From: Phycisphaera mikurensis NBRC 102666
GTDB taxonomy: Bacteria > Planctomycetota > Phycisphaerae > Phycisphaerales > SM1A02
Direction: 5' to 3'
Assembly (NCBI GenBank): GCA_945877905.1
Contig: CAMDUT010000004.1
Location: forward strand, 1-40,674
Length of the DNA stretch: 40,674 nt
Shown here: piece by piece, positions 6,421 through 40,026 of the stretch
How positions within the stretch are numbered: the stretch's first letter is position 1
How the letters are laid out: every line of letters begins with the position of its first letter
Position numbers and translations under genes: made by a program
Notes under the pieces: generated by a model
What the model saw: the letters and a program-made list of their open reading frames with translations, nothing else
The model's database searches: none
Told to the model about the DNA's origin: nothing

Positions 6421-7215
6421 GTGGCGAAGGGCGTCCCCGCGCTCGAACGCGTCGCCGCGCGGTTGCGCGACGAGTGCGGGACGCTGCGCTTCGGCGCGCC
6501 GGTCGCGTTCACGTACCACCCGCTCGACTACGCGTGGGAGGCGCACCGCGCCTTCCTCCGCATGGCGCGCGCGAGGCCGCGCGTCCTCTTCGTCGGCATG
6601 AACCCCGGGCCCTTCGGCATGGCGCAGACGGGCGTGCCGTTCGGCGAGGTGGCGTCCGTGCGCGGCTTCCTCGGGATCGACGGGCGCGTGGCCCGCATCG
6701 GCGCGCCCGCGCGCATGCACCCGAAGCGCCCGGTCGAGGGCTTCGCCTGCGCGCGCAGCGAGGTGAGCGGCGCGCGCGTGTGGAACTGGGCGCGCGAACG
6801 GTTCGGCACGCGCGAGGCGTTCTTCCGCGAGGCGTTCGTCTGGAACTGGTGCCCGCTCGCGTTCGTCTCAGCGAGCGGCGCGAACCTCACCCCGGACAAG
6901 CTGCCGCGCACGGGGGCGGGTTCGCGCGCGGTGCGCGCACTGGGCGAGGCGTGCGATCGCGCGCTCGTGGGTGCGATCGCGGCGCTCGAACCGCGCCACG
7001 TCGTCGGCTTCGGCGCGTTCGCGGCGGCGCGCGCGGAGGCCGTGCTCGGTTCGATGCGCGAGGGTTCCTCGGGTGCGGCGCACGCGGGCACGCTGCCCGA
7101 CGTGCGCCAGGTGCTGCACCCGAGCCCGGCAAGCCCCGCCGCCAACCGCGGGTGGGCTCCGCAGGTCGACCGCGCGCTTGCACCTATCCTGCCCGCGTGC
7201 GCGTCGCGGTCCTGA
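6421..7215 (+). CDS. smug1: SMUG-type uracil-DNA glycosylase
   Basis: The enzyme removes uracil and oxidised pyrimidines from DNA at the start of base-excision repair. Motif 1 is an almost exact SMUG1 signature, GMNPGPFGMAQTGVPFGEV near residue 60, with the Asn of the NPGPFG loop that activates water. Motif 2 is HPSPASPAANRGW near residue 237, holding the catalytic His and the DNA-wedge segment. The length of 264 residues fits the family. The GTG start at 6421 is 4 bases after the DUF481 stop, and the 3' end overlaps the EboF-like gene by 19 bases, so it sits in an operon. SMUG1 was first known from animals and is patchy in bacteria. Confidence 0.94.
   Translation: MAKGVPALERVAARLRDECGTLRFGAPVAFTYHPLDYAWEAHRAFLRMARARPRVLFVGMNPGPFGMAQTGVPFGEVASVRGFLGIDGRVARIGAPARMHPKRPVEGFACARSEVSGARVWNWARERFGTREAFFREAFVWNWCPLAFVSASGANLTPDKLPRTGAGSRAVRALGEACDRALVGAIAALEPRHVVGFGAFAAARAEAVLGSMREGSSGAAHAGTLPDVRQVLHPSPASPAANRGWAPQVDRALAPILPACASRS
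7185..7190 (+). promoter_or_regulatory. -10-like box TATCCT, 6 bases before the GTG start
   Basis: TATCCT lies inside the 3' end of the glycosylase gene, exactly 6 bases before the GTG start of the eboF-like gene. No convincing -35 is seen. It could give eboF its own leaderless transcript inside the operon. Confidence 0.4.
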
Positions 7216-8588
7216 ACGTCGTCGGGCTGTCGCCCTCGGTCTTCGCGCGTCGGATGTCCCCGGCGCTGCAGGCGTTCGCGCAGCGGTGCGGGGGCATCCG
7301 CACGCTCGAGCCGGACTTCCCGGCCGTCACGTGCACCGTCCAGTCGTCGATGCTCACCGGCCGGCGCCCGGAGCACCACGGCATCGTGGGAAACGGGTGG
7401 TTCGACCGGTCGCTCAACGAAGTGCATTTCTGGAAGCAGTCGAACGCGCTGGTGACGGGGCCCATGGTGTGGGACACGCTGCGCGCGCGCGCACGCGCCG
7501 CCGGGCGCCCGATGCCGACGGTCGCGAACTCGTTCTGGTGGTTCAACATGCACTCGGGGGTCGACGTCGCGGTGACGCCGCGCCCGCAGTACCGCGCCGA
7601 CGGCCGCAAGGTGCCCGACTGCTGGACACGGCCGGCCGGGCTGCGCGACGAGCTGCAGCGCGAGCTGGGCCCCTTCCCGCTGTTCCGGTTCTGGGGACCG
7701 GCCGCCGACATCCGAAGCACCGAGTGGATCGCGCAGGCGGCGATGCGCGTCGAGGACCGCGTGCAGCCCGCGCTGCAGCTGGTCTACCTGCCGCACCTGG
7801 ACTACTGCCTCCAGAAGTTCGGTCCCGGCGACCCGCGCTGCGACGCGGAGATCCGGGAGCTCGACCGCGTGTTCGCGGGGCTCGAGCGGTTCCTCTCCGA
7901 GCGCGGCGTGCGCATGATGGTGGTCAGCGAGTACGGCATCGCCCCGGTCTCGAAGGCCGTGCTCCCGAACGTGATGCTTCGCGAGGCCGGTTTCCTCGCC
8001 ACGCGGACGGAGGATGGACGCGACCTGCTCGACGCCGGCGAGAGCGCGGCGTTCGCCGTCTGCGACCATCAGGCGGCGCACGTGTACGTGAAGCGCCCCG
8101 AGGACCTGGCCGCGGTTCGCGCGCTGCTGGAGGCGATGCCCGGGGTCGAGCGCGTGCTTGACCGCGACGCGCAGCGCGCGGCGGGCATCGCGCACGCGCG
8201 CGCGGGCGAGCTCACCTGCGTGGCCGGGCCGGATGCGTGGTTCGGATACCGCTGGTGGGAGGACCACGCGCGTGCGCCGGACTACGCACGCACCGTCGAC
8301 ATCCACCGAAAGCCCGGCTACGACCCGCTCGAGCTCTTCATGGACCCGGCGATCCGGTCGCCCTCGCTCTACGTCGGGGCGCAGCTGGCGAAGCGACGGC
8401 TCGGCCTGCGGGCACTCCTGGAGACGGTGCCGCTCGACGAGTCGCTCGTGCGCGGAAGCCACGGGCGCGTCGAGCGCGACTCGCCCCACTCGCCGGTGCT
8501 CGTCGCCGACGGGCTTGACCACCTGCCCGCGGGGCCGGTGCACGTGACGGCCGTGCACGACGCCATCGTGGGACTCTGCGAGCGCTGA
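7197..8588 (+). CDS. eboF: EboF-like alkaline phosphatase superfamily protein
   Basis: This 463-residue protein is a type I phosphodiesterase/nucleotide pyrophosphatase relative of the kind found in ebo clusters. Visible parts are NVVGLSPSVF at the N-terminus, the nucleophile region PAVTCTVQSSMLTGRRP (Thr45 or Thr47), GIVGNGWFD, LPHLDYCLQKFGP (Asp202), VSEYGI, DHQAAHVYVK (Asp290, His291) and DIHRKPGYDPLELF. The NVVGLSPS, VTPRPQYRADGRK and DIHRKPGYDP blocks are what I remember of EboF proteins rather than of general phosphatases. It has no signal peptide, so it is probably cytoplasmic. The GTG start at 7197 overlaps the glycosylase gene by 19 bases. In cyanobacteria ebo genes help deliver biosynthetic precursors to the periplasm; the substrate here is unknown. 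Confidence 0.85.
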   Translation: MRVAVLNVVGLSPSVFARRMSPALQAFAQRCGGIRTLEPDFPAVTCTVQSSMLTGRRPEHHGIVGNGWFDRSLNEVHFWKQSNALVTGPMVWDTLRARARAAGRPMPTVANSFWWFNMHSGVDVAVTPRPQYRADGRKVPDCWTRPAGLRDELQRELGPFPLFRFWGPAADIRSTEWIAQAAMRVEDRVQPALQLVYLPHLDYCLQKFGPGDPRCDAEIRELDRVFAGLERFLSERGVRMMVVSEYGIAPVSKAVLPNVMLREAGFLATRTEDGRDLLDAGESAAFAVCDHQAAHVYVKRPEDLAAVRALLEAMPGVERVLDRDAQRAAGIAHARAGELTCVAGPDAWFGYRWWEDHARAPDYARTVDIHRKPGYDPLELFMDPAIRSPSLYVGAQLAKRRLGLRALLETVPLDESLVRGSHGRVERDSPHSPVLVADGLDHLPAGPVHVTAVHDAIVGLCER

Positions 8589-28218: not shown

Positions 28219-29133
28219 TCAGCTTGCCGCGAAGCGGGGCCGCAGCGCGCCCGAGAGCCCGAACATCGCGACGCACAGGAGGCCGAGCAGGGGCCTCCCG
28301 AGCAGGAAGCACGTCGCGGCGTCGACCAGCGGGATCCCGCCGAGCCACGTCCCGACCGCCGCGGGCACCGCCTCCGCGCGCGCGGAGGCCGCGAGCCGGG
28401 CGCCCGTCACCACGCCGACCACGGCGGCGGCCATCGCCGCGAGCCCCAGCGTCACCAGCACGGCGGACTCAGGCCCCACGCCCTCGGCGAGCCACACCCC
28501 GAGCGGCGCACACGCGGCCAGCGGCAGCGCCCACCGGACCGCGCGGGCCACGGGCGGCAGGCCCTGCACCTCGTTGCGCGCGACGAGCCCCAGCGCGGCC
28601 ACGTACGCGAACGCGCCCCCGGCCACCCACCCGAGCAACGCCCCGTCGGCGCCCGGCGACACGGCGAGCGCCGCGATCACGGGCACGATCGCGCGGCACG
28701 CCGCCATCACGAGGAATGCGCCCGGGAACCACGCATGCACGGCGTTGTAGAGCACCACGCACCCGGCGAGCAGCACGGCCCACCACCGCACGGCCTCTCC
28801 CATGGACGCGAGCATGGCCACACCCACGCCGAGCGTCGCAAGCCCCGCGAATCGCGCGCGTGCGACGCCGATGCGGCCCGACGGGATCGGCCGCGATGGG
28901 CGCTCGCGCGCATCGACCTGCGCGTCGAACGCGTCGTTGAGCACCATGCCCGCCACGTACGTGAGCACGGTGCCGGCGACAAGCACCACGCCGGGCCCGA
29001 ACGGCACCGGCACGTCCGCGAGCCGCGCCTGGAGCCCCACCGCCATGCCGGCGAACACGTTCGACACGACGGTCGGCGCGTTGCCGACCCGCATCAGCTC
29101 GAGCCACGCGCCCACGCCGCCGCGCGCGCTCAC
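28219..29133 (-). CDS. eboC: EboC, UbiA-like prenyltransferase
   Basis: The 304-residue protein has about eight or nine transmembrane helices and the UbiA aspartate motif NDAFDAQVDARERPSRPIP (Asn66, Asp67, Asp70, Asp74), used in other members to bind a prenyl diphosphate through Mg. The second Asp-rich motif is changed to RNEVQGLPP, which fits EboC rather than quinone-pathway UbiA. In ebo clusters EboC is required for metabolite traffic, and its substrate is not known. The GTG start at 29133 overlaps the eboE stop (GTGA), so the two are translationally coupled. A long upstream open frame is a shadow of eboE. Confidence 0.9.
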   Translation of the reverse strand: MSARGGVGAWLELMRVGNAPTVVSNVFAGMAVGLQARLADVPVPFGPGVVLVAGTVLTYVAGMVLNDAFDAQVDARERPSRPIPSGRIGVARARFAGLATLGVGVAMLASMGEAVRWWAVLLAGCVVLYNAVHAWFPGAFLVMAACRAIVPVIAALAVSPGADGALLGWVAGGAFAYVAALGLVARNEVQGLPPVARAVRWALPLAACAPLGVWLAEGVGPESAVLVTLGLAAMAAAVVGVVTGARLAASARAEAVPAAVGTWLGGIPLVDAATCFLLGRPLLGLLCVAMFGLSGALRPRFAAS

Positions 29134-30302
29134 GTGGCGCTCCCCGCACGGGCGAACCCGGTGCGTTGCGCCGCGCCGGCGCACCACTCCACCTCGCGCG
29201 CGATGCCGTCCACCAGCGCCTGCCCCTCGCGTGCGCCGTCGGGCAGCGCGTCCCACGCGTACGTCTCGACCTCGAGCTGCGGGCGCTCGTCCGCCGGCCA
29301 CGAGGCGAGTTCCTCGAGGCACTCGACGATCGCGGCCTGCGTCGTCGCGAGCGCACCGAGCCGTGCGGCGAAGACCGGCACGTGGAAGTGCGTGCGCCAC
29401 GTGCCGTGCGTCCCCGAGGCGAGCGCGAACGGCAGGTCCTCCCAGAACCCGACGGTGCCGTCCTCGCGGCGCACGCACGTCTGGTGCAGCCATCGCGGCT
29501 CCGCGAAGGTCGAGAGCACGACCAGCGAATCGGGCGACCCGTCGGCCTCGATGGCGCTCGAGACCTGCACCTTGTGGACGCCGATGCCGGCGTCGCGATA
29601 CGCCCGCAGCGCATCGCGCTGGCCTTCGAACATCACCGCGGAGTGGCACGTGTCGTGGCACACGCCCACGTAGCGACGCACGTCCGGCCCGCCGGCGCGG
29701 GAGCGCAGCGCATGCTCGAAGAAGCCGACGAGGTCGCGCGCGCGGTCGAGCATGCATCCGGGCTCGGGCTCGAGGTCGACCGTGATGCGCACGCCCGTGC
29801 GATCCTCGAGGCGTGCGAGGTGCGCCGCGAGCTGCTCGAGCATCGCGCCCGCCAGGCCCGCGCTCGCGCCGCAGCCCTCGAGGCTGAAGCGCTCGCGCCA
29901 GCCGAGCGGAAGCGTGCTGATCGAAGCACGCGCGCTCCCCGCGGGAAGGAGGTCCACCAGCAGGTCCGCGAGCTGCGTCGTGTGCATCAACCGGCGCACG
30001 TCGGCCCAGTGCGGCTCGTACACGAGGTGCTTCACGGTCGGGAGGTGGAAGTCGTGGTACGGGAACCCGTTCAGCGTGACGACCGAGAGCCCCGCGTCCG
30101 CGAGGTCGTCGCGCAGCCGCCGCGCGCCGCCCGGCTCGGCCGAAAGCTCCTGCGCCGCACGCGCCGAGAGCCACAGCCCGACCGGAAGCACCGATCCGGG
30201 GGCGACGCGCGACCGCACCGCGCCCATCGTGCCGATGACCGCCGCACGCGTCTCGTCGAGCGTGCGTCCGGCCAGGACGTTCGTGCAGTACGCCGGGAGC
30301 AC
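29130..30302 (-). CDS. eboE: EboE, xylose-isomerase-like TIM-barrel protein
   Basis: This 390-residue protein shows the ebo-type pattern: YCTNVLAG at the start, then LPVGLWLS, LNGFPYHDFH, TVKHLVYEPHWAD, DLEPEPGCML, CHDTCHSAVMF, KVQVSSAIE and HFHVPVFA. The Glu, His and Asp residues in these blocks sit where metal ligands of sugar-isomerase-like TIM barrels are found. In cyanobacteria EboE is part of the set that moves precursors to the periplasm; its own reaction is unknown. The GTG start at 30302 is 7 bases after the TlpA-like gene and is preceded by GAGG. The stop overlaps eboC. Confidence 0.9.
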   Translation of the reverse strand: MLPAYCTNVLAGRTLDETRAAVIGTMGAVRSRVAPGSVLPVGLWLSARAAQELSAEPGGARRLRDDLADAGLSVVTLNGFPYHDFHLPTVKHLVYEPHWADVRRLMHTTQLADLLVDLLPAGSARASISTLPLGWRERFSLEGCGASAGLAGAMLEQLAAHLARLEDRTGVRITVDLEPEPGCMLDRARDLVGFFEHALRSRAGGPDVRRYVGVCHDTCHSAVMFEGQRDALRAYRDAGIGVHKVQVSSAIEADGSPDSLVVLSTFAEPRWLHQTCVRREDGTVGFWEDLPFALASGTHGTWRTHFHVPVFAARLGALATTQAAIVECLEELASWPADERPQLEVETYAWDALPDGAREGQALVDGIAREVEWCAGAAQRTGFARAGSAT

Positions 30303-30309
30303 CCGGACC

Positions 30310-31140
30310 TCAGGGCTTCGGGACGTCGGAGCGCGTCACCGTGCGGCGCTTCGTGGTGGTCTTCGTGCCGTTGCGCACCTCGACGCGCACCGTCTCGGTG
30401 ACCGTCTGCGTCACGGTCACGCCCTTCACGGTGGAGGTCGAGCTGGAGCTGGACGTCGACTCGCTGGTCGACTCGCCCTTCTCGTCGGTGGGCTCCGAGG
30501 TGACCTCCTCGGTGGTGCCCGGCTCAAGGGCCTCCGACGGCTGCTTGGCGGAATCCCCGCGCTTCCAGACCCCGTCGACGGGCTTGGTTCCTGGCGACTT
30601 CGACGCGGGCTCCTTCGCTCCCGGGGCCTTCGCGGCGGGGTCCGCCGCGTCCTTTCCGAGCGCGGCGAGGATGGCCGTGTCGAGCTCGGCGTTGGGCGAC
30701 CCCACGAACGCGACCTTGCCGTCCTTGCCGACCACCATCGACGTCGGGATGGTGCGGCGCTTCGCGGCGTTCATCCAGTCCTGCGCCATCGAGCCGTCGG
30801 TGTCGAGCGCGATGCGGAACCCGACGTCCTTGCCGCGGCCGTCGAGGAACTCGCGCACCTTCTGTTCCATGGCCGCGGCATCGGGCGCGCGCTCGAATCC
30901 CGCCACGCCGATCACGGTGAGCTCGGGGTGGTCCTTCTGCAGCTTCGAGAGGTGCGGCATCGTGCGGATGCACGGCCCGCACCACGTCGCCCAGAACTCG
31001 AGCACGTAGACCTTGCCCGGCTCGAACACGGACACGGCCTCGCCCTGCATGAACTTCTCGACCGAGAGCGCCGGGGCGGCGGAACCCGCGGCAAGCACGT
31101 CACCGAGCGACAGGACCGAGGCAAGCGCAATGGTCAGCAT
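30310..31140 (-). CDS. TlpA-like thioredoxin with long Ser/Thr-rich tail
   Basis: This 276-residue protein has a short N-terminal hydrophobic signal and a TlpA/redoxin domain (about 20-170) with the active site EFWATWCGPCIR, TVIGVAGFERAP and the cis-Pro region RRTIPTSMVV. It likely reduces or exchanges disulfides outside the cytoplasm. The last 100 or so residues are unusual: a Lys/Pro/Ala linker, then an acidic Ser/Thr-rich stretch, then a beta-prone repeat TVTQTVTETVRVEV and a basic end. The gene lies 9 bases after the amidotransferase gene and 7 bases before eboE, so it is part of that operon. Confidence 0.9.
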   Translation of the reverse strand: MLTIALASVLSLGDVLAAGSAAPALSVEKFMQGEAVSVFEPGKVYVLEFWATWCGPCIRTMPHLSKLQKDHPELTVIGVAGFERAPDAAAMEQKVREFLDGRGKDVGFRIALDTDGSMAQDWMNAAKRRTIPTSMVVGKDGKVAFVGSPNAELDTAILAALGKDAADPAAKAPGAKEPASKSPGTKPVDGVWKRGDSAKQPSEALEPGTTEEVTSEPTDEKGESTSESTSSSSSTSTVKGVTVTQTVTETVRVEVRNGTKTTTKRRTVTRSDVPKP

Positions 31141-31146
31141 GCGTGC

Positions 31147-31152
31147 AGGCTA
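31147..31152 (-). promoter_or_regulatory. -10-like box TAGCCT formed with the preceding stop codon
   Basis: The hexamer begins with the TAG stop of the amidotransferase gene and lies 6 bases before the ATG of the TlpA-like gene. It fits the leaderless pattern but depends on the stop codon for three bases. Confidence 0.3.
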
Positions 31153-31824
31153 CCGGGCACGCGCGGCGTCCACGAGCCTGCGGAAGATTCCCACCCCCAG
31201 CGCCTCATCGGCCGTCCGCTCCGGGTGCCACTGCACGCCCACGGAGAAGGGCCGCGACGGGTCGCGGATGGCCTCGATCACGCCGTCGTCGGAATGGCCG
31301 ATCACCTCGAACCCGGGTGCGTCGGCGATCGCCTGGTGATGCCAGCTCGCGACCGGCCCCGCGCCGAGCTCGGTCCGTACCGCATGGACGCGGTCGTCAC
31401 GGTGGCGGTCGGCGTCGGCGATGACGTCCGCGAGGTGCTGGATGAGGCGCGCCCCTCGGTGCACGCCCATGAGCTGCATGCCCAGGCACACGCCGAGCAG
31501 CGGGACCTCCGGGCGACGCTCGAGCGCGTCGAGCAGCGCGAGCTCCGCCGCCTGCCGCGACGGGTCCATCACCCTCGCCTCCGGGTGCAGCGGGATCCCG
31601 AACGGGCGCGTGTCGACGTCGTCGCCCCCGATGATCACGACCGCATCCAGCCGGTCCAGTGCCGGCTCGCGCGAAGCGGCGCACGCCGGAAGCAGCACGG
31701 GAATGCCGCCCGCGGCGAGCACCGCGTCGACGTAGGTCGACCGCACCTGGTGCCGGGGGCGGCCACGGTCGTCGTGCGCCAGGTCCGCGGTGATTCCGAC
31801 CAACGGAGGACGTTCACTCGCCAT
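31150..31824 (-). CDS. Class-I glutamine amidotransferase-like hydrolase (PuuD/peptidase C26 type)
   Basis: This 224-residue protein resembles gamma-glutamyl-gamma-aminobutyrate hydrolases. It opens VGITADLAHDDRGRP, has VVIIGGDDVDTRPFG, the nucleophile elbow LLGVCLGMQLM (Cys near 105), SWHHQAI and the catalytic His-Glu pair QWHPERTADE near residue 198. In the family it removes a gamma-glutamyl group from a small amine. The gene is the first of the run that continues with TlpA, eboE and eboC. The ATG at 31824 is chosen because it matches the family start and has a TATCGT box 6 bases ahead; the longer open frame is a shadow of the esterase gene. Confidence 0.92.
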   Translation of the reverse strand: MASERPPLVGITADLAHDDRGRPRHQVRSTYVDAVLAAGGIPVLLPACAASREPALDRLDAVVIIGGDDVDTRPFGIPLHPEARVMDPSRQAAELALLDALERRPEVPLLGVCLGMQLMGVHRGARLIQHLADVIADADRHRDDRVHAVRTELGAGPVASWHHQAIADAPGFEVIGHSDDGVIEAIRDPSRPFSVGVQWHPERTADEALGVGIFRRLVDAARAR

Positions 31825-31830
31825 GCACGG

Positions 31831-31863: not shown

Positions 31864-33954
31864 ATGCGGCGAATGCGCGCCCCCCTCGTGATCGCCGTCG
31901 CCCTGGCCGCGTCCGCTCCCCTCCACGCCGAGATCCGGCTGCCCGCCGCGTTCACCGACCACATGGTGATCCAGCGCGACCGGCCGGTCCGCGTGTTCGG
32001 ATCGGCGCAGACCCACGAGGAGATCACGGTCGAGGTCCGCGACTCCAAGGGAGCCGTCGTTCGCAGCGGTCGCACGACGGCCGACCAGTCGGGGCACTTC
32101 GCGCTGTCGCTCGAGCCGCTCAAGGGAAGCAACGACCCGCTGGTGCTCGAGGTCCGGGGCTCGAACACGATCACGGTCGGCGACATCCTGGTGGGCGACG
32201 TGTGGATCGCCGGCGGGCAGAGCAACATGGAATGGCCGCTGGCCGCGACGGGGCCGCAGCTCGAGGCCGCGAAGGCGGTGCCGCTCGACGGCGCCATCCG
32301 GGTCCTCAAGGCGCCCCACGTGACCGCCAACCGGCCCGCCGAGACGATCGACGCGCGCTGGCAGGTGCTCGACGCGACGACGTTGCCCGAGACGACGGCG
32401 GTCGGCTTCTGGTTCGCGACCGCCATCCACGCGCGCACCGGGCTGCCGGTCGGGATCCTCTCGATCAACTGGGGCGGCACGCGCGCCGAGCCATGGGCCG
32501 ACCTCGCGACGCTCGGTTCGGACGCCGCGTACACCGAGTCCATCGGGCGCCAGCGCATGGCCGTCGACGCATGGCACCGCCTCGGCCAGGCCGAGCGCGA
32601 CCGCGCCTACGAGGCCCGGCGGCGCGTGTTCCAGGCGGCCGGCACGCAGTGGTGGACCTCGGTGAACGCCGATGAACCGGGAATCACCGGCAAATGGGCC
32701 GATCCGGCCACCGCGACCGACGTCGAGGGCTGGCGCGCCGTCTCGCTGCCGTCGGCATGGAGCGCCGATGCCGAACTGCGCGGGTTCGACGGCACCGCGT
32801 GGTTCCGCCGACAGGTGACCATCCCGGAAGCCTGGGCCGGCAAGGAGCTGACGCTCGAGCTCGGCCCGATCGACGATGCCGACGTCGCGTTCTGGAACGG
32901 CCGCGCGATCGCCAACACGATCGCCGACTGGACGTCGCCGCGCAGGTACCGCGTGCCCGCGCCGCTCGTGAAGTCCGGGGAGGCGACGCTCGCCGTCGAG
33001 GTGCTCGACATGCACGGCGAAGGCGGGTTCTGCGGCGACGCCGCCGCGATGAAGCTCTCGTGCAAGGAGTCGACCGACCCGCCGATCGCACTCGCGGGCG
33101 AGTGGCGCATGCGTCTCGGCCGCGAGGCGAAGGGGCTGCCGCAGCCGCCCGAGCGGCCCGCGCGCGACTCCGCGCCCGGCACGGGAGTCACGTCGCCGGG
33201 CGCGCTCTTCAACGGGATGATCGCGCCCTTCACGGGCTTCGGCGTGCGCGGCGCCATCTGGTACCAGGGCGAGAGCAACGCGGGATCCGAGGCCGAGGCA
33301 GGGGCCTACGCGACGCTGCTGCCGCTCGTGATCCGAAGCTGGCGCGCGGCGTTCGAGCAGCCCGACATGCCCTTCGGCGTGGTCAGCCTCGCGTCGTTCA
33401 TGCAGCACCGGCCGGACGCGCCGATCCACGGCACGTGGCCGGTCCTGCGCGAGTCCCAGCTTGCGGCCGAGCGAAACTCCCCGAACGTCGGCGTCATCAC
33501 GACGATCGACGTGGGCGACGCCGACGACATCCACCCGGTCGACAAGCGCTCCGTCGGCGAACGACTCGCGCGATGGGCGGCGTCGGTGAGCTACGGCGCC
33601 CAGGACCTGGCGTGGCGCGGCCCGCGCCCGAAGAGCGCTCGGCGCGAGGGCGACGGGATCGTGGTCTCGTTCGACGCCGAGCGCGGTGCGCTCGCCACGC
33701 GCGACGGCAAGCCGCCCGCGTCGATCGCGGTCGCGGGCGAGGACGGCGTGTTCCGCATCGCGCAGGCCGAGATCCGGCCGCCGAACGCGATCTTCGTGCG
33801 GAGCCCGGACGTCGCCACGCCCATGGAGGTCCGCTACGCGTGGCAGGACAACCCCGCCGACGCGAACCTCGTCGACGACGCGTCCAAGCTGCCCGCGCAC
33901 CCGTTCCGGATCCGCGTCGAGGCCGACCCGGTGCAGGCCACACCCGTCAGGTGA
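31864..33954 (+). CDS. Sialate O-acetylesterase family protein
   Basis: These secreted SGNH-type esterases remove O-acetyl groups from sialic acids or other sugars. The 696-residue protein has a signal peptide (LVIAVALAASAPLHA). The first SGNH block is AGGQSNMEWPL near residue 117 (Ser nucleophile), then GILSINWGGTRAEPW, an inserted beta-sandwich (about 290-420, GTAWFRRQVTIPEAW), IWYQGESNAG near 466, and DADDIHPVDKR near 553, which holds the catalytic Asp-His pair. The ATG at 31864 is taken; an ATG at 31873 is equally possible. The 3' end overlaps the convergent MFS gene by 8 bases. It looks unrelated to the ebo genes around it. Confidence 0.93.
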   Translation: MRRMRAPLVIAVALAASAPLHAEIRLPAAFTDHMVIQRDRPVRVFGSAQTHEEITVEVRDSKGAVVRSGRTTADQSGHFALSLEPLKGSNDPLVLEVRGSNTITVGDILVGDVWIAGGQSNMEWPLAATGPQLEAAKAVPLDGAIRVLKAPHVTANRPAETIDARWQVLDATTLPETTAVGFWFATAIHARTGLPVGILSINWGGTRAEPWADLATLGSDAAYTESIGRQRMAVDAWHRLGQAERDRAYEARRRVFQAAGTQWWTSVNADEPGITGKWADPATATDVEGWRAVSLPSAWSADAELRGFDGTAWFRRQVTIPEAWAGKELTLELGPIDDADVAFWNGRAIANTIADWTSPRRYRVPAPLVKSGEATLAVEVLDMHGEGGFCGDAAAMKLSCKESTDPPIALAGEWRMRLGREAKGLPQPPERPARDSAPGTGVTSPGALFNGMIAPFTGFGVRGAIWYQGESNAGSEAEAGAYATLLPLVIRSWRAAFEQPDMPFGVVSLASFMQHRPDAPIHGTWPVLRESQLAAERNSPNVGVITTIDVGDADDIHPVDKRSVGERLARWAASVSYGAQDLAWRGPRPKSARREGDGIVVSFDAERGALATRDGKPPASIAVAGEDGVFRIAQAEIRPPNAIFVRSPDVATPMEVRYAWQDNPADANLVDDASKLPAHPFRIRVEADPVQATPVR

Positions 33955-35494
33955 CCGGCTTGCCCGGCCTCATCCAGCGGCGCACCGCGAAGAGCGCGCT
34001 CGCCGTGCCCAGCGCGGCGACGCCGTACCCCACGGCGTAGGCACGCGCCGACGCGCGCTGGACGGCCGCGAAGTCCGCGTCCGAGGACGCGTCCGCGCGC
34101 GCGTTCGGGTCGCCGGAACGCAGCATCGCCCGAAGCCTCGCCACGGACGCCGGGTCCTCGAGCCGCTCGGCGCGCGTGAACGCGCCCATGGAGATCGCGA
34201 CCGCGGCCGCCACCGTGGCCACGCCGACGCTGCCGCCGACCTGGCGCATCGTCTGCACGAGGCCCGAGACCTGCCCGCGCTCGGAGTGCGGCACGCGGCC
34301 GAGCGCATCGGTGTTCGTCGGGCTCATCGTGAAGGCGATGCCGAGCCCGAGGACGAACATGCCCGCCGCCATCACGGGGTAGCTCTGCGCCCACGCGCCC
34401 GCGGCCTGCACCAGCATGCCCCCGCTCGCCATCGCGGTTCCCCACGTCGCCGGCGCGCGCACGCCCGCACGGTCGTACCAGCGCCCGGCCACGTGCACCA
34501 CCAGGATCACGGGCGCAAGCATGGGCAGGAGCGACGCGCCGGCCTCGGTGGGCGAATACCCCAGCACGTCCTGCGCGTAGAGCGAACCCGCGACCACCAG
34601 CCCCGTCATCGCGAACTGCATGCACATGATGACCACGGCGTCCGCGGCCAGGGCGTGGTCGGCGAAGAGGCGCAGCCGCAGCAGCGGGCGCGGGTGGTTC
34701 CACTGCCGGCGCACGAACGCGGCGAGCGCGACGGCGCCCCCCGCGAGCGCCGCGAGCGTGAGCGGGTCGTCCCACCGGAGCGAACCGTCCGCGCGCGCGG
34801 CACCCAGTTGCTGGATCCCGAACACCAAGGGCGGCAGCCCCAGCATGAGGAGGATGCCGCCGAGCCAGTCGATGTGCCGGTCCGGGCTGCGCGAGTCGCG
34901 CGGCCGCGCGACGAGCGTGAGGATGACGGCGGCCGCGGCGATCGGCAGGTTCAGGAGGAACACCCACTTCCAGCCCCATCCCTCGACGATGACGCCGCCG
35001 ACCGCCGGCCCGAGCGCCATGAACACCATCGGGATGCCCACGTACGCGGCCATGGCCTTGCCGCGCTCGCCGGGCGCGAACGCGCCGATCACGAGCGCAC
35101 CCGACGCCGGCTGCATGAGGCATGCGGCCACGCCCTGCAGGACGCGGCCCGCGATCATCTGCGTCCCGTCGCGCGCGAACGCGCAGACCGCGCTCGCGGC
35201 GGCGAACGCCACCACTCCGGCGACGAACGCAGGCACCTTCCCGACCAGGTCGCCGATGCGCCCGCCGATCGCCATGAGCGACGCGAGCGCGAGCAGGTAG
35301 CTCGTCACGATCCACGCCTGCCCCATGTCGTCCATCCCGAGCGACGCGCCGATCCGCGGGAGCGCGACGCCGACCACGGTCATGTCGATGAAGATCATCG
35401 ACAGGCTGCCGGTCATCGCCAGGAGCACCAGCCCGCGCCGCGGCTGCGCGCCGTCGCCCACCGCGTGCGGAGCCGGTGCGGCAGGCGAGGTCAT
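33947..35494 (-). CDS. DHA2-family MFS drug/metabolite exporter (EmrB/QacA type)
   Basis: This 515-residue protein has 14 predicted transmembrane helices, the length and layout of proton-driven DHA2 exporters. Visible motifs are [19 protein letters not shown] in helix 1, [21 protein letters not shown] (motif A region), [21 protein letters not shown] and [14 protein letters not shown]. The start overlaps the eboB stop by 4 bases (ATGA), so it is translationally coupled to the eboD-eboB operon. The substrate is not readable from sequence, but the coupling suggests export of an ebo-linked compound. No membrane fusion protein or outer-membrane channel gene is nearby. Confidence 0.94.
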
Positions 35495-36333
35495 CGCGTG
35501 ACGTCCGGCGCCGTCGGGCGCAGGGGCTGCGCGCTGAAGCGGCCCGACTGCGAGAGGAAGCGCTCCGGGTTCTCGAACGTGACGCGCCGCACCAGCGACT
35601 CGAGGTGCCCGCGGCGCCGCATCTCCATCTGGGCCTTCGGCACCGCGACGGGATCGCTGTGCCCCCAGTCGCCGGCCGAGTTCATCCAGATGCGCTCGCT
35701 GCCCCAGCACTCGATGATGTCCACCGCGCGCTGCGGCGTGCACTTCGTGTCCGGGTACAGCGTCATGCCGCACCAGAACCCGCGGTCGAGCACGTTGCCC
35801 ACCGTGTGCTCCTCGACGTGGTCGATGAGGACCCGGCCCGGGTCGAGCGTGGGGAACCGTCGGATCGCGTCCATGATGAGCCGCGTCCCCTTCAGCTTGT
35901 CCTCCAGGTGCGGCGTGTGCACCAGCACGAGCAGCCCGTGGTCGCTCGCCAGCTGCAGGTGCGCCTCGAGGATCTCGAGCTCGTTGCGGCTGTTCTTGTT
36001 GAGCCCGATCTCGCCGATCCCGAGCACGTTCTCGCGCTCGAGGAACCCGGGGATCAGCCCGATCACCTCGCGCGCGAAGACCGGGTCCTCGGCCTCCTTC
36101 GGGTTGATGCAGAGCCAGGCGTGGTGGCGGATGCCGTACTGCGCGGCCCGGCGCGGCTCGGACTCGGTGAGCTGCCGGAAGTAGTCGAAGAACCCCTTCG
36201 GGCTCGAGCGGTCGTACCCGGCCCAGAACGCCGGCTCCGTGATTGCCACGCACCCGGCGCGCGCCATGCGGACGTAGTCGTCCGTCGTGCGGCTCACCAT
36301 GTGCACGTGCGGGTCGATGTACACGTCAGCCAC
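35491..36333 (-). CDS. eboB: EboB, TatD-like metal-dependent hydrolase
   Basis: This 280-residue TIM-barrel protein has a full set of TatD-type metal ligands: YIDPHVHM (HxH), [10 protein letters not shown] (Glu), VLVHTPH (His), LIDHVEEHT (His) and [10 protein letters not shown] (Asp). The blocks [13 protein letters not shown] and the NP.E segment are those of ebo-cluster TatD-like proteins rather than of DNase TatD. The GTG start at 36333 overlaps the stop of the small upstream gene by 8 bases, and the stop overlaps the MFS gene. Substrate unknown. In ebo systems it is required together with the other members for metabolite traffic. Confidence 0.9.
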
Positions 36334-36637
36334 CGCCCTTCGCGGGGTCGTGCGCGCCGGTCGCGCCCTTCATGCCGGCCCTCGCGACCGGCTCGGAGGA
36401 TGGGTCGCTCAGGAGCTCGAGCACGCGGCGCGCGCGGTCGGGGCGCCCGTCGCCGAGGATCGAGACGGCCGCGTGGAACGCGCACATGCGGAAGTCGTCG
36501 TCGCCCGCGCCGGCCCGATCCACCCGGTCGAGGAACGCGGCCACGTCGAGCAGCCGCGCACGGTGCTCCATGAAGTACGCGTCGACGACCTGCGCGCGGG
36601 TCATCGGCGTGCCGCCGCCATTCGCGCCTGCTGCCAT
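36326..36637 (-). CDS. Small ebo-locus protein in the EboA position
   Basis: This 103-residue protein has no signal peptide, membrane helix or known catalytic motif. Its core is helical: [20 protein letters not shown], then [18 protein letters not shown] and [13 protein letters not shown], followed by a flexible Gly/Lys-rich tail. It sits exactly between eboD and eboB, with a 10-base gap on one side and an 8-base overlap on the other, so it belongs to the pathway by position. Known EboA proteins are, as I recall, longer, so it may be a shortened EboA or an unrelated replacement. The ATG at 36637 is chosen because of a TAGACT box 7 bases ahead; the ATG at 36604 is an alternative. Confidence 0.6.
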
Positions 36638-36644
36638 GGGCGCA

Positions 36645-36650
36645 AGTCTA
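36645..36650 (-). promoter_or_regulatory. -10-like box TAGACT formed with the eboD stop codon
   Basis: The hexamer begins with the TAG stop of eboD and lies 7 bases before the ATG of the small ebo-locus gene. TAGACT is a close -10 match, and it would give an internal leaderless transcript for the small gene, eboB and the MFS gene. Confidence 0.35.
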
Positions 36651-37787
36651 GGTGGACGCCGCGTCGAGCACCGCGCGCCGCAGGAGCGACGGGTCGATCG
36701 CGTGGACGTCGGTTCCCTCGCCGATCGCCCGCAGGAGCGTGATCGTGAGCCGGCCGCCGAGGTGCTCGCGGAACTCCTCCAGGCCCGCCTCGACCGCGCC
36801 GAGGTCGGCGAGCAGGGGGTGCGAGGTCGGCAGCCCGAGCGCGCGCAGCACGGCGACGACACGCGCACCCGACGACGCGTCGAGCAGCCCCGCGTGCACC
36901 GAGTACGTCGTGTCGACCGCGACGCCGATCGCCACGGCCTGGCCGTGCGGGAGCTCGCCGTCCGTCATCCCCTCGAGCCGGTGCGCCAGCCAGTGCCCGA
37001 AGTCGAGCGGGCGCGCGCTGCGCACCTCGAACGGGTCGCCGCCGAGCACGATGTGCCGGTAGTGCAGCTCGGCGCTGCGCACGATGACCGGCATCGCCGC
37101 GGCCATGTCGCGCGCGCGGATGGCCGCGGCGTCGCGCTCGATCCGCGCGAACAGCTCGGGGTCGCGCAGGAGCGCGATCTTCACCGCCTCGCTGAAGCCG
37201 CCGATCCAGCTCCACTCCGGCGACGACTCGAGCAATGCCTCGTCGCAGACCACCGCGTGGGGAACGGCGAACGCACCGACGAAGTTCTTCTTCCCGCCGG
37301 CATTGATGCCGTTCTTGACGGCCATGCCCGCGTCGTCCTGCGAAAGCGTCGTGGTCGGCAGCCGCACCAGGCGGCACCCGCGGTGCGCGATCGCGGCGCC
37401 GAACCCGACGGCATCGAGCACCGCCCCGCCGCCCACCGCGATCACGCAGCTCTGGCGGTCGATCCGGTGCGCGTCGACCGCGCGCACCACGCGCTCGGGC
37501 ACCTCCATGGAGCGCTTGCACCGCTCGCCGCCGGGCACCTGCTCGACGCACGCGAGCTCGGGCATGCCCTCGCGCGCGCGCAGGTACGCCGCCAGGCGCG
37601 CGCCGAGCTCCGGGTGCGCGGCCGCGACGCCCTCGTCGACGAAAGCGATGCAGCGCGCCGAACCCGCCAGCGCGTCGGCGAGCGAAGGGTTGCCCGCGTC
37701 GAGCGCGCCGCGCGTGAACGCCACGCGGTGCCGGAAGGGCACCGAGAACGGGACGTCGAGGGTGGCCGGGACGTGGGCGTGCCGCAT
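36648..37787 (-). CDS. eboD: EboD, 3-dehydroquinate synthase-like protein
   Basis: This 379-residue protein has the dehydroquinate synthase fold: IAVGGGAVLDAVGFGAA (NAD-binding), LPTTTLSQDDAGMAVKNGIN and GKKNFVGAF. The metal ligands are in GGFSEAVKIALL (Glu), LDFGHWLAHRLE (His) and LPHGQAVAIG (His). The DDAGMAVKNGIN-GKKNF block is typical of EboD rather than AroB. The ATG at 37787 is chosen over a more distant ATG at 37970, whose extension would run into the HtrA gene and lacks family similarity. It leads the operon with the small protein, eboB and the MFS exporter. As EboD it likely makes or modifies a sugar-like cyclic compound; this is inference. Confidence 0.91.
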   Translation of the reverse strand: MRHAHVPATLDVPFSVPFRHRVAFTRGALDAGNPSLADALAGSARCIAFVDEGVAAAHPELGARLAAYLRAREGMPELACVEQVPGGERCKRSMEVPERVVRAVDAHRIDRQSCVIAVGGGAVLDAVGFGAAIAHRGCRLVRLPTTTLSQDDAGMAVKNGINAGGKKNFVGAFAVPHAVVCDEALLESSPEWSWIGGFSEAVKIALLRDPELFARIERDAAAIRARDMAAAMPVIVRSAELHYRHIVLGGDPFEVRSARPLDFGHWLAHRLEGMTDGELPHGQAVAIGVAVDTTYSVHAGLLDASSGARVVAVLRALGLPTSHPLLADLGAVEAGLEEFREHLGGRLTITLLRAIGEGTDVHAIDPSLLRRAVLDAAST

Positions 37788-37896
37788 CGGGAACGGCGCA
37801 TCGTAGGTCCGCAAGCACACCCGGCCCGGCCGCTTCGCGGCACGGACCGGGGTCGTGGGGGCTTGGATTGCCGGACGCGGGACAGCCGCGCGGCGG

Positions 37897-39072
37897 TCAC
37901 TGCCGCCGAAGGCGGTCGGGAACGATGATGCGAGGCGCCGCGGGGGCAGGTTGCGGGGCCATGGGTGCATCGGCCGCCGCGACCGCGCGCGGCGCGTCGT
38001 CGAGCATGGCCTTCACCTCGACCGACTCGCCGTCGCGCATGACCTCGACGACGCACTCGGTGCCGGGCTTGCACAGGCGGATCTGGCGCATCACGCGCCG
38101 CATGTCGGGAGTCTCGGTCCCGTTCACCTTGACGATCACGTCGCCGGGCTCGATGCCCGCGCGCGCCGCGGGGCCGTCCTCGACCACCGAAGCGACCATC
38201 ACGCCTCCGTCGGCGACCGTGCCGGAGGCGCGGCGCACGGCCACGGGCTGCATCTGCACCCCGAGGAAGCCGCGCGCCGGCGCGCTTCCGGCGATGATCG
38301 AGTCGACGACGTCGCGCGCCAGGGTGGCGGGAATCGCGAAGCCGATGCCGTCCGAGCCTCCGCTGCGGCTCTCGATGGCGGTGTTGATGCCGACCACGCG
38401 CCCGTCCATGTCCACGAGCGGCCCGCCCGAGTTGCCAGGATTGATCGTGGCGTCGGTCTGCAGGTAGCTCTCGAGCGGGCTGAGCCCCACCTCGCGGCCC
38501 TTCGCGCTGATGATGCCGGCGGTCACGGTGTCTCGCAGGCCGAACGGCGCGCCGAGCGCGATCACCCAGTCGCCGACCTCGGCCGCGTCGCTGTCGCCGA
38601 AGGCGATCGGGACGAGGTCGGGCAGGTCCACCTTCAGCACGGCGAGGTCGGTCTCGGCGTCGGACCCGACGAGACGCGCGTCCGACTCGCGGCCGTCATG
38701 CAGCTTCACGCGGATGCGACCGCCCATGCGGACGACGTGGTTGTTCGTCACCACGTGGCCGTCTTCGCTCACGATGAAGCCGGTGCCCATGCCCTGCGGG
38801 ACCTGCATCGGCACCACCTGCACCGGCGCCATGCCGCGCATGCGGACCACGCCGGGCGTGGCCTGCGGGACCACCTCGATGGAGACCACCGAGGGCCCCG
38901 CATGCTTGGCGACGGCTCGGAAGGCGCGCGAGAGGTTCCTGGCGTGGCTCACCGCCTCCTGCACGTCCGGGGGCAGCGTCTGCCCTGAACCGGACGGCAG
39001 GCCGTCCGCCCACACAGCGGACGAGGAGGCGAGGACGCACGCCACGATGGACCGTGAGAGCCAGGGGTGCAT
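37897..39072 (-). CDS. HtrA/Deg-type periplasmic serine protease with one PDZ domain
   Basis: These proteases cut misfolded proteins in the periplasm. The 391-residue protein has a signal peptide (SIVACVLASSSAVWA). The trypsin-like domain has the triad His112 (VTNNHVV), Asp142 (DAETDLAVLKVD) and Ser215 (NPGNSGGPLVD). One PDZ domain follows (about 265-360: GFLGVQMQPV, ASVVEDGPAARAGIEPGDVI) and then a Pro/Ala-rich tail. The ATG at 39072 is used because it begins the signal; AGGAGG lies 13 bases ahead, a somewhat long spacing. It lies 109 bases upstream of eboD on the same strand and may be transcribed separately. Confidence 0.95.
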   Translation of the reverse strand: MHPWLSRSIVACVLASSSAVWADGLPSGSGQTLPPDVQEAVSHARNLSRAFRAVAKHAGPSVVSIEVVPQATPGVVRMRGMAPVQVVPMQVPQGMGTGFIVSEDGHVVTNNHVVRMGGRIRVKLHDGRESDARLVGSDAETDLAVLKVDLPDLVPIAFGDSDAAEVGDWVIALGAPFGLRDTVTAGIISAKGREVGLSPLESYLQTDATINPGNSGGPLVDMDGRVVGINTAIESRSGGSDGIGFAIPATLARDVVDSIIAGSAPARGFLGVQMQPVAVRRASGTVADGGVMVASVVEDGPAARAGIEPGDVIVKVNGTETPDMRRVMRQIRLCKPGTECVVEVMRDGESVEVKAMLDDAPRAVAAADAPMAPQPAPAAPRIIVPDRLRRQ

Positions 39073-39150
39073 GTCGTGCGTACGACCTCCTGCCGCCGCG
39101 GTTCGCGAAAAACCGGTCGGGATCGAAAATCTCGTTATCAGGGCCCGTGC

Positions 39151-39166
39151 CGCCCCTTCCGGGGCG
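39151..39166 (-). terminator. possible hairpin terminator after the methyltransferase gene
   Basis: A 6-bp CGCCCC/GGGGCG stem with a TTCC loop lies 6 bases beyond the stop of the SpoU-type gene, in the gap before the HtrA gene. No T-tract follows directly. Confidence 0.4.
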
Positions 39167-39171
39167 ACCAA

Positions 39172-40026
39172 TCATCCCGCGCGCGGGTGCTCGGCGAGCC
39201 GCGCCAGGAATACGCCCGCCGCCACGCCGACGTTCAGCGAATCCACGCCTTCGGCCATCGGAATCCGCGCGCGATGCGTGCACGCCGCCAAGGCGGCCTC
39301 GCCGAGCCCCGCGAACTCCGCGCCCACCAGCACCGCGATGCGCCGCGGCGCGTGCCCGTCGAGCGACCGAGCCGCCTCGGCCAGCGTGCTCGCCCCGCGA
39401 CCCGTGGCGCCGACCACCGCGAACCCCGCGTCGTCGCGAAGCCACGCGAGCTCCGCGGCCCAGTCCGCGCTGCGCGCGAACGGCACGCGCAGGGCGTGCC
39501 CGCAGCTCACGCGAAGGCTCTTGCGGTAAAGCGGATCGTGGCACGAGGGCGAGAGCAGCACGCCCGCGCACCCGAAGGCCGCGGCGTTGCGGAAGAGCTG
39601 GCCGATGTTGTCGATGTTGTTGACGTCCTCGACGGCGAGCACGAGCGCGTCGCCCGACGCCGGCACCACCTCGCGCACGGAACGCTCCGGCGGGCGGCGG
39701 CCCACCGCGAGGAACCCGCGGTGGATCGCGAACCCGACCACCGAGTCGAGCACGTCGTCGGCCGCGAGAAGGACCTCGGGATCCGCTCGGCCCGTGCGCC
39801 ACGGCGCAGCCGCGCGCACCAGCGCCACCGCGCGCTCGCGCTGGCGCTCGCTCGCGAGCACCGAGAGCGTCTCGACGGGTGCGCGCAGCATCGCTTCGAT
39901 CACCAGCGGGCTCTCGCCGACGAAGAGCCCGGGCCGACCGTCCGCCCCGAGCGCATCACGGTCGCGCACCGAGCGGTACGGCTCCAGCCGAGGGTCGTTC
40001 GGGTCGTGGATCAGGGACGGGTCCAT
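39172..40026 (-). CDS. SpoU/TrmH-type RNA 2'-O-methyltransferase
   Basis: These SPOUT enzymes methylate a ribose 2'-OH in rRNA or tRNA with S-adenosylmethionine. The 284-residue protein has an N-terminal L30e-like substrate-binding domain (about 30-130) with FVGESPLVIEAML. The catalytic domain has motif 1 NNIDNIGQLFRNAAAFG, DPLYRKSLRVSCGHA, motif 2 IAVLVGAEFAGLG and the knot motif 3 IPMAEGVDSLNVGVAAGVFL. The target is not visible. The ATG at 40026 is the only suitable start. A tandem 11-bp repeat lies just upstream in the divergent gap. Confidence 0.94.
   Translation of the reverse strand: MDPSLIHDPNDPRLEPYRSVRDRDALGADGRPGLFVGESPLVIEAMLRAPVETLSVLASERQRERAVALVRAAAPWRTGRADPEVLLAADDVLDSVVGFAIHRGFLAVGRRPPERSVREVVPASGDALVLAVEDVNNIDNIGQLFRNAAAFGCAGVLLSPSCHDPLYRKSLRVSCGHALRVPFARSADWAAELAWLRDDAGFAVVGATGRGASTLAEAARSLDGHAPRRIAVLVGAEFAGLGEAALAACTHRARIPMAEGVDSLNVGVAAGVFLARLAEHPRAG

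Follow-up and report, generated by a model that had tools for sequence, protein, structure and literature searches.

The window (the whole 40,674-nt stretch of DNA that was analysed) contains a set of ebo genes together with a gene for an MFS exporter. On the minus strand, the gene order is SpoU, DegP, eboD, a small 103-aa gene, eboB and the exporter, beyond which lie peptidase C26, a TlpA-like gene, eboE and eboC. The features are as follows.

39172-40026, minus strand, SpoU-type methylase, named from its translation
37897-39171, minus strand, DegP-like protease, named from its translation
36648-37847 (start approximate), minus strand, eboD, sugar-phosphate cyclase/DHQ-synthase-like (PRK06203, 450 bits, above cut-off)
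36326-36637, minus strand, small 103-aa gene upstream of eboB, no Pfam or NCBIfam match
35491-36333, minus strand, eboB, TatD-like metal hydrolase, 280 aa (PF01026)
35491-35494, minus strand, ATGA overlap of the eboB stop and the exporter start, read from the sequence
33947-35494, minus strand, DHA2/EmrB-type MFS exporter, 515 aa, 14-helix (TIGR00711 above cut-off; AlphaFold2 model; Foldseek matches to EmrB, EfpA and QacA)
31867-33954 (start approximate), plus strand, sialate O-acetylesterase-like gene (SASA; PF03629)
31150-31830 (start approximate), minus strand, peptidase C26/gamma-glutamyl hydrolase-like gene ("GAT"; PF07722)
30310-31140, minus strand, TlpA/Redoxin-like thioredoxin-fold protein (PF08534)
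29130-30302, minus strand, eboE (NF035939, 378 bits; cut-off 250)
28219-29133, minus strand, eboC, UbiA-type, with a GTGA overlap with eboE (NF035940, 112.7 bits, under the cut-off of 250)
7195-8588 (start approximate), plus strand, eboF, phosphodiesterase-like, detached from the other ebo genes (open reading frame and similarity match)

The eboB, eboD, eboE and eboF genes are clear. The match of eboF (positions 7200-8510, E=7.7e-136) is to an EboF-like protein of genus g220, encoded 3' of eboE-eboC. With 112.7 bits, EboC falls short of its NCBIfam cut-off of 250; judging from this profile score, planctomycete EboC may form a distinct subgroup. In described clusters, eboG is a small gene that takes the place of eboA (PMC5133447, Yurchenko et al. 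2016), and the position of the 103-aa gene suggests that it is probably EboG. A DNA-glycosylase-like gene (6421-7215) adjoins eboF, and in g231 and g212 a look-alike lies close to the exporter copies that are not linked to eboB (loci L206, L207 and L210), hinting at a former common neighbourhood of the ebo genes, the exporter and this gene.

The sequence-only reading had placed the start of the exporter inside the last codons of eboB, which was confirmed. The 3' end of eboB reads ...GAC GTC ACG CGA TGA (stop at 35493-35491, minus strand) and the 5' end of the exporter reads ATG ACC TCG CCT GCC (start at 35494-35492, minus strand), so that the two co-directional genes overlap by 4 nt. Spacing between them ranges from -4 to about +90 nt among relatives, the value of -4 being found in the window and in some relatives; thus the ATGA overlap is not conserved among the relatives whose spacing was compared. 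A similar overlap, GTGA, joins eboE and eboC within the same window. Translational coupling was therefore rejected as a sign of special function.

In the other genomes of the genus, the transporter has as its neighbour a protein 90-98% identical to the window's EboB. The order eboD-small gene-eboB-exporter is kept in 14 of 14 genomes of this genus, and is thus beyond chance. In this genus the exporter is probably the final gene of an eboD-(G)-B-exporter unit. The SASA gene runs towards it from the opposite strand and slightly overlaps its 3' end; no other genus has its ebo operon split by this gene.

Family assignment and fold of the exporter agree with the earlier description of a DHA2-type protein with 14 helices. 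It scores 244 bits against TIGR00711 (efflux_EmrB; NCBIfam), above the curated cut-off of 230.2, and the exporter of a congener (G296) falls just under it with 223; the Pfam MFS_1 match has E=3.8e-49. An AlphaFold2 model built from 39 sequences (mean pLDDT 89.3, pTM 0.88) contains 14 membrane helices, helices 7 and 8 being the linker helices, and a simple hydropathy scan gave 13 clear segments. The top structures found by Foldseek were EmrB (8zal), EfpA (8x6x, 8ufd), QacA (7y58) and a Rv1410 homologue, and EfpA is the closest solved structure by sequence (E=5.6e-41).

Residues D37, R79, D82, G85, R117, G162-P163, G166-G167 and R338/D341 are invariant in the 39 exporter sequences, and the columns of motifs A (G..D..G), C (GP..GG) and D1 (D.TVV.VALP) are invariant or nearly so. 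We take the conserved residues to represent motifs D1, A, B and C, which are typical of drug:proton antiporters. Among the charged residues, Asp37 and Asp396 are conserved and Arg417 is invariant; no conserved acidic residue was found in helix 13 in the aligned relatives. About 60% of the aligned relatives share with the exporter a helical stretch (448-470) between the last two helices. The source genome gave a single match for the transporter, which indicates that general and specific roles are not shared out between two close copies.

A search for EboB covered 201 genomes of the order, and we read 100 neighbourhoods, almost all of them from the order. The basic ebo arrangement is D-G-B-E-C, and the gap between eboB and eboE is usually no more than about 100 nt. 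Within the window's own family (Phycisphaerales-like, 181 genomes), other genes often occupy the slot between eboB and eboE; in 10 of the 100 neighbourhoods the occupant is the exporter, and a search with the exporter profile found no other MFS gene in the remaining ones. Clustering of D-G-B-E-C in the planctomycetes surveyed here differs from the absence of ebo clustering that Yurchenko et al. noted in three planctomycetes (PMC5133447).

Within the family, EboB was detected in 158 of 181 genomes and the exporter, at E<=1e-60, in 110 of 181; adjacency and absence were counted by hand from the coordinates. In 35 genomes of five genera, including all 14 genomes of the window's genus, the exporter is the next gene after eboB and has the same orientation. 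In these genera every exporter-bearing genome shows the adjacency (g1, 14/14; g213, 14/14; g230, 4/4; g226, 2/2; g225, 1/1), and the linked exporters share 44-56% protein identity between genera. The sequence-only reading had staked its proposal on a conserved linkage in related genomes, and the neighbourhood survey did find such linkage, given these five genera and 35 genomes. In g226 (L077, G381), eboB and the exporter occur together, with no eboD, small gene, eboE or eboC nearby.

The transporter is located away from eboB in 75 genomes of 14 genera, and a further 47 genomes of 20 genera have eboB in a genus that lacks the exporter at the same threshold. All 19 exporter-bearing genera also have eboB. 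For g231 and g212, eboB and the unlinked copy are 14-27 kb apart where one contig holds both. Around the unlinked copies, the neighbours that were read are conserved at most between close genera and do not point to a dedicated pathway.

How unusual this adjacency is can be judged from the 26 genera in which the surroundings of eboB were read. Genes linked to eboB were the small gene (25 genera, directly 5' of eboB, as also in most Verrucomicrobia-type loci), eboD (22), eboE (21), SpoU (9), peptidase C26 (8) and the exporter (5). DegP, which like SpoU is unrelated to ebo, shows similar linkage. Since SpoU is linked in more genera than the exporter, the adjacency falls within ordinary synteny for the family. 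Unrelated inserts occupy the same slot in other genera: DUF3500, rhodanese/metallo-beta-lactamase, PA14/cytochrome and SIMPL genes. Eight of the 26 genera retain the peptidase C26 gene between eboB and eboE, more than have the exporter there.

Monophyly of the linked exporter copies was rejected (AU test, p=0.004), and with it a single insertion inherited as one clade. The adjacency therefore goes back to an old ancestor or has originated repeatedly. A tree of EboB, EboD and EboE, made by a quick method with no bootstraps, places the linked genera in three groups that require at least five changes, and fits one old gain with repeated losses or several gains alike. The history may be one of repeated breaks in an old eboB-exporter-C26 block or of a junction formed at least twice. 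In the four genera that have both genes, C26 is the next same-strand gene after the exporter, and this shared gene would favour one old block.

We consider it probable, with some reservation, that a DHA2 exporter has lodged in the eboB-eboE slot of one family as an accessory passenger, serving general or family-specific efflux that the Ebo pathway does not require. Weighing against this reading are the linkage seen in every exporter-bearing genome of the five genera, always on one strand and at short spacing, the failure of the linked copies to group together, the presence of eboB in all 19 transporter-bearing genera, the distance of only 14-27 kb in g231 and g212, and the single copy in the source genome. 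None of 20 ebo loci from planctomycetes beyond the order, which almost all belong to different families, has an MFS gene matching the exporter profile within 10 kb, and about 45 Verrucomicrobia-type loci likewise showed no DHA2 gene next to ebo. Among 80 named EboB loci from GTDB genomes, eight have such an MFS gene, all of them in planctomycete-type MAGs with the same gene order. No TIGR00711 match at E<=1e-30 was detected anywhere in 39 of 44 ebo-bearing planctomycetes of other families, and in the remaining five none lies on the eboE contig. A core ebo gene should be conserved with ebo across phyla; the exporter is adjacent in five of 26 genera, all in one family. Because most ebo-bearing bacteria lack it beside ebo or lack it altogether, the exporter is a local accessory and not the missing ebo transport step.

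A somewhat unlikely alternative, which we nevertheless weigh seriously, is lineage-specific recruitment, in which the exporter was drafted in five genera to move an Ebo-dependent small molecule, such as a prenylated cyclitol or precursor, across the inner membrane. It would account for the co-directional abutment in every exporter-bearing genome of those genera, and the non-monophyly of the linked copies and the presence of eboB in 19 of 19 transporter-bearing genera also point to it. In addition, EfpA and the Rv1410 homologue are among the nearest structures; EfpA and Rv1410 are described as handling lipids (PMC10802681, PMC10576003), a property that would fit a lipid-linked Ebo product and leaves room for a role in moving a prenylated one. 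However, in sister genera with this operon the transporter is found at another place or is missing, the SpoU control is linked in nine of 26 genera against five for the exporter, and the same slot has taken many unrelated inserts. That the ebo pathway of one planctomycete family recruited a DHA2 pump, perhaps more than once, as a dedicated exporter or lipid-type translocator is in our view unlikely.

Quite improbable is regional synteny alone, with the transporter an old chromosomal neighbour of ebo that was inherited with no consequential co-expression. The similar linkage of the ebo-unrelated SpoU and DegP genes and the g231 and g212 copies at 14-27 kb are consistent with it, but the spacing of -4 to about +90 nt and the uniform strand fit an operon better. 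A universal missing Ebo transport step is extremely improbable: in its favour, the ebo genes described so far include no transporter (PMC5133447), but the exporter is not beside ebo outside one family, most ebo clusters, those of sister genera included, have no such gene beside them, and a copy is absent from most of the ebo-bearing planctomycete genomes examined (39 of 44) and from 47 genomes of its own family, so that the distribution within and beyond the family contradicts this role.

What survives of the proposal that the exporter is a candidate for ebo transport is therefore a weaker form, a lineage-specific accessory linked in five genera; as a general step it fails on distribution. A transporter in the operon would be a handle on both the substrate and the mechanism of the widespread ebo cluster. 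As the exporter is not a general part of the ebo mechanism, attention stays on the core Ebo proteins, and the five-genus subset is where a link between exporter and ebo is directly testable.

As an accessory passenger, the exporter would be transcribed with eboD, the eboG-like gene and eboB, and probably translated with eboB at the ATGA junction. It probably works, as other members of its family do, by alternating access and proton antiport through Asp37. Its cargo would most likely be small amphipathic or toxic compounds, extruded from the inner leaflet or the cytoplasm, a substrate class and direction that we infer. QacA has an acidic vestibule (PMC10425836). Since the charge pattern of the exporter is unlike it, a lipophilic neutral or acidic substrate seems more plausible than a dication. 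A QacA-type cation pump was set aside as the residue pattern appears unfit (no conserved acid in helix 13, invariant Arg417), and an EmrAB-type tripartite pump because no adaptor gene lies beside the exporter in the window.

Compared with known systems, the window shares eboB, eboD, eboE and eboF with the ebo clusters of cyanobacteria, Bacteroidetes and Deinococcales, together with a putative eboC and a small gene beside eboB that probably corresponds to the eboG variant. The described clusters, whose named inserts are a glycosyltransferase, tyrA and dsbA (PMC5133447), have no transporter gene, in contrast to that of the window. The earlier statement that the core ebo set includes no classical exporter holds, no transporter being among the described ebo genes (PMC5133447, PMC6282210), and in the literature searched (PMC5133447, PMC6282210, PMC9235831) we found no description of an ebo cluster with one. 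The exporter is thus a conventional member of the DHA2 family in an ebo context that we did not find described.

With EmrB/DHA2 (TIGR00711), the exporter shares sequence family and 14 helices, and its best Foldseek match is 8zal_J (E=1.6e-17). It differs from EmrAB-TolC in having no adjoining EmrA (HlyD) or TolC gene, in its location in an ebo operon and in an identity of about 23%; a Pfam and NCBIfam scan found no EmrA/HlyD adaptor among its neighbours in the window. Mycobacterial EfpA is the best PDB sequence match, with a close fold and about 25% identity, lipid handling being a feature of EfpA. Within the QacA/LfrA/SmvA subset, the stretch at 448-470 of the exporter resembles the EL7 hairpin of QacA (PMC10425836), whereas the exporter, unlike QacA, lacks the conserved acid in helix 13 and carries the invariant Arg417.
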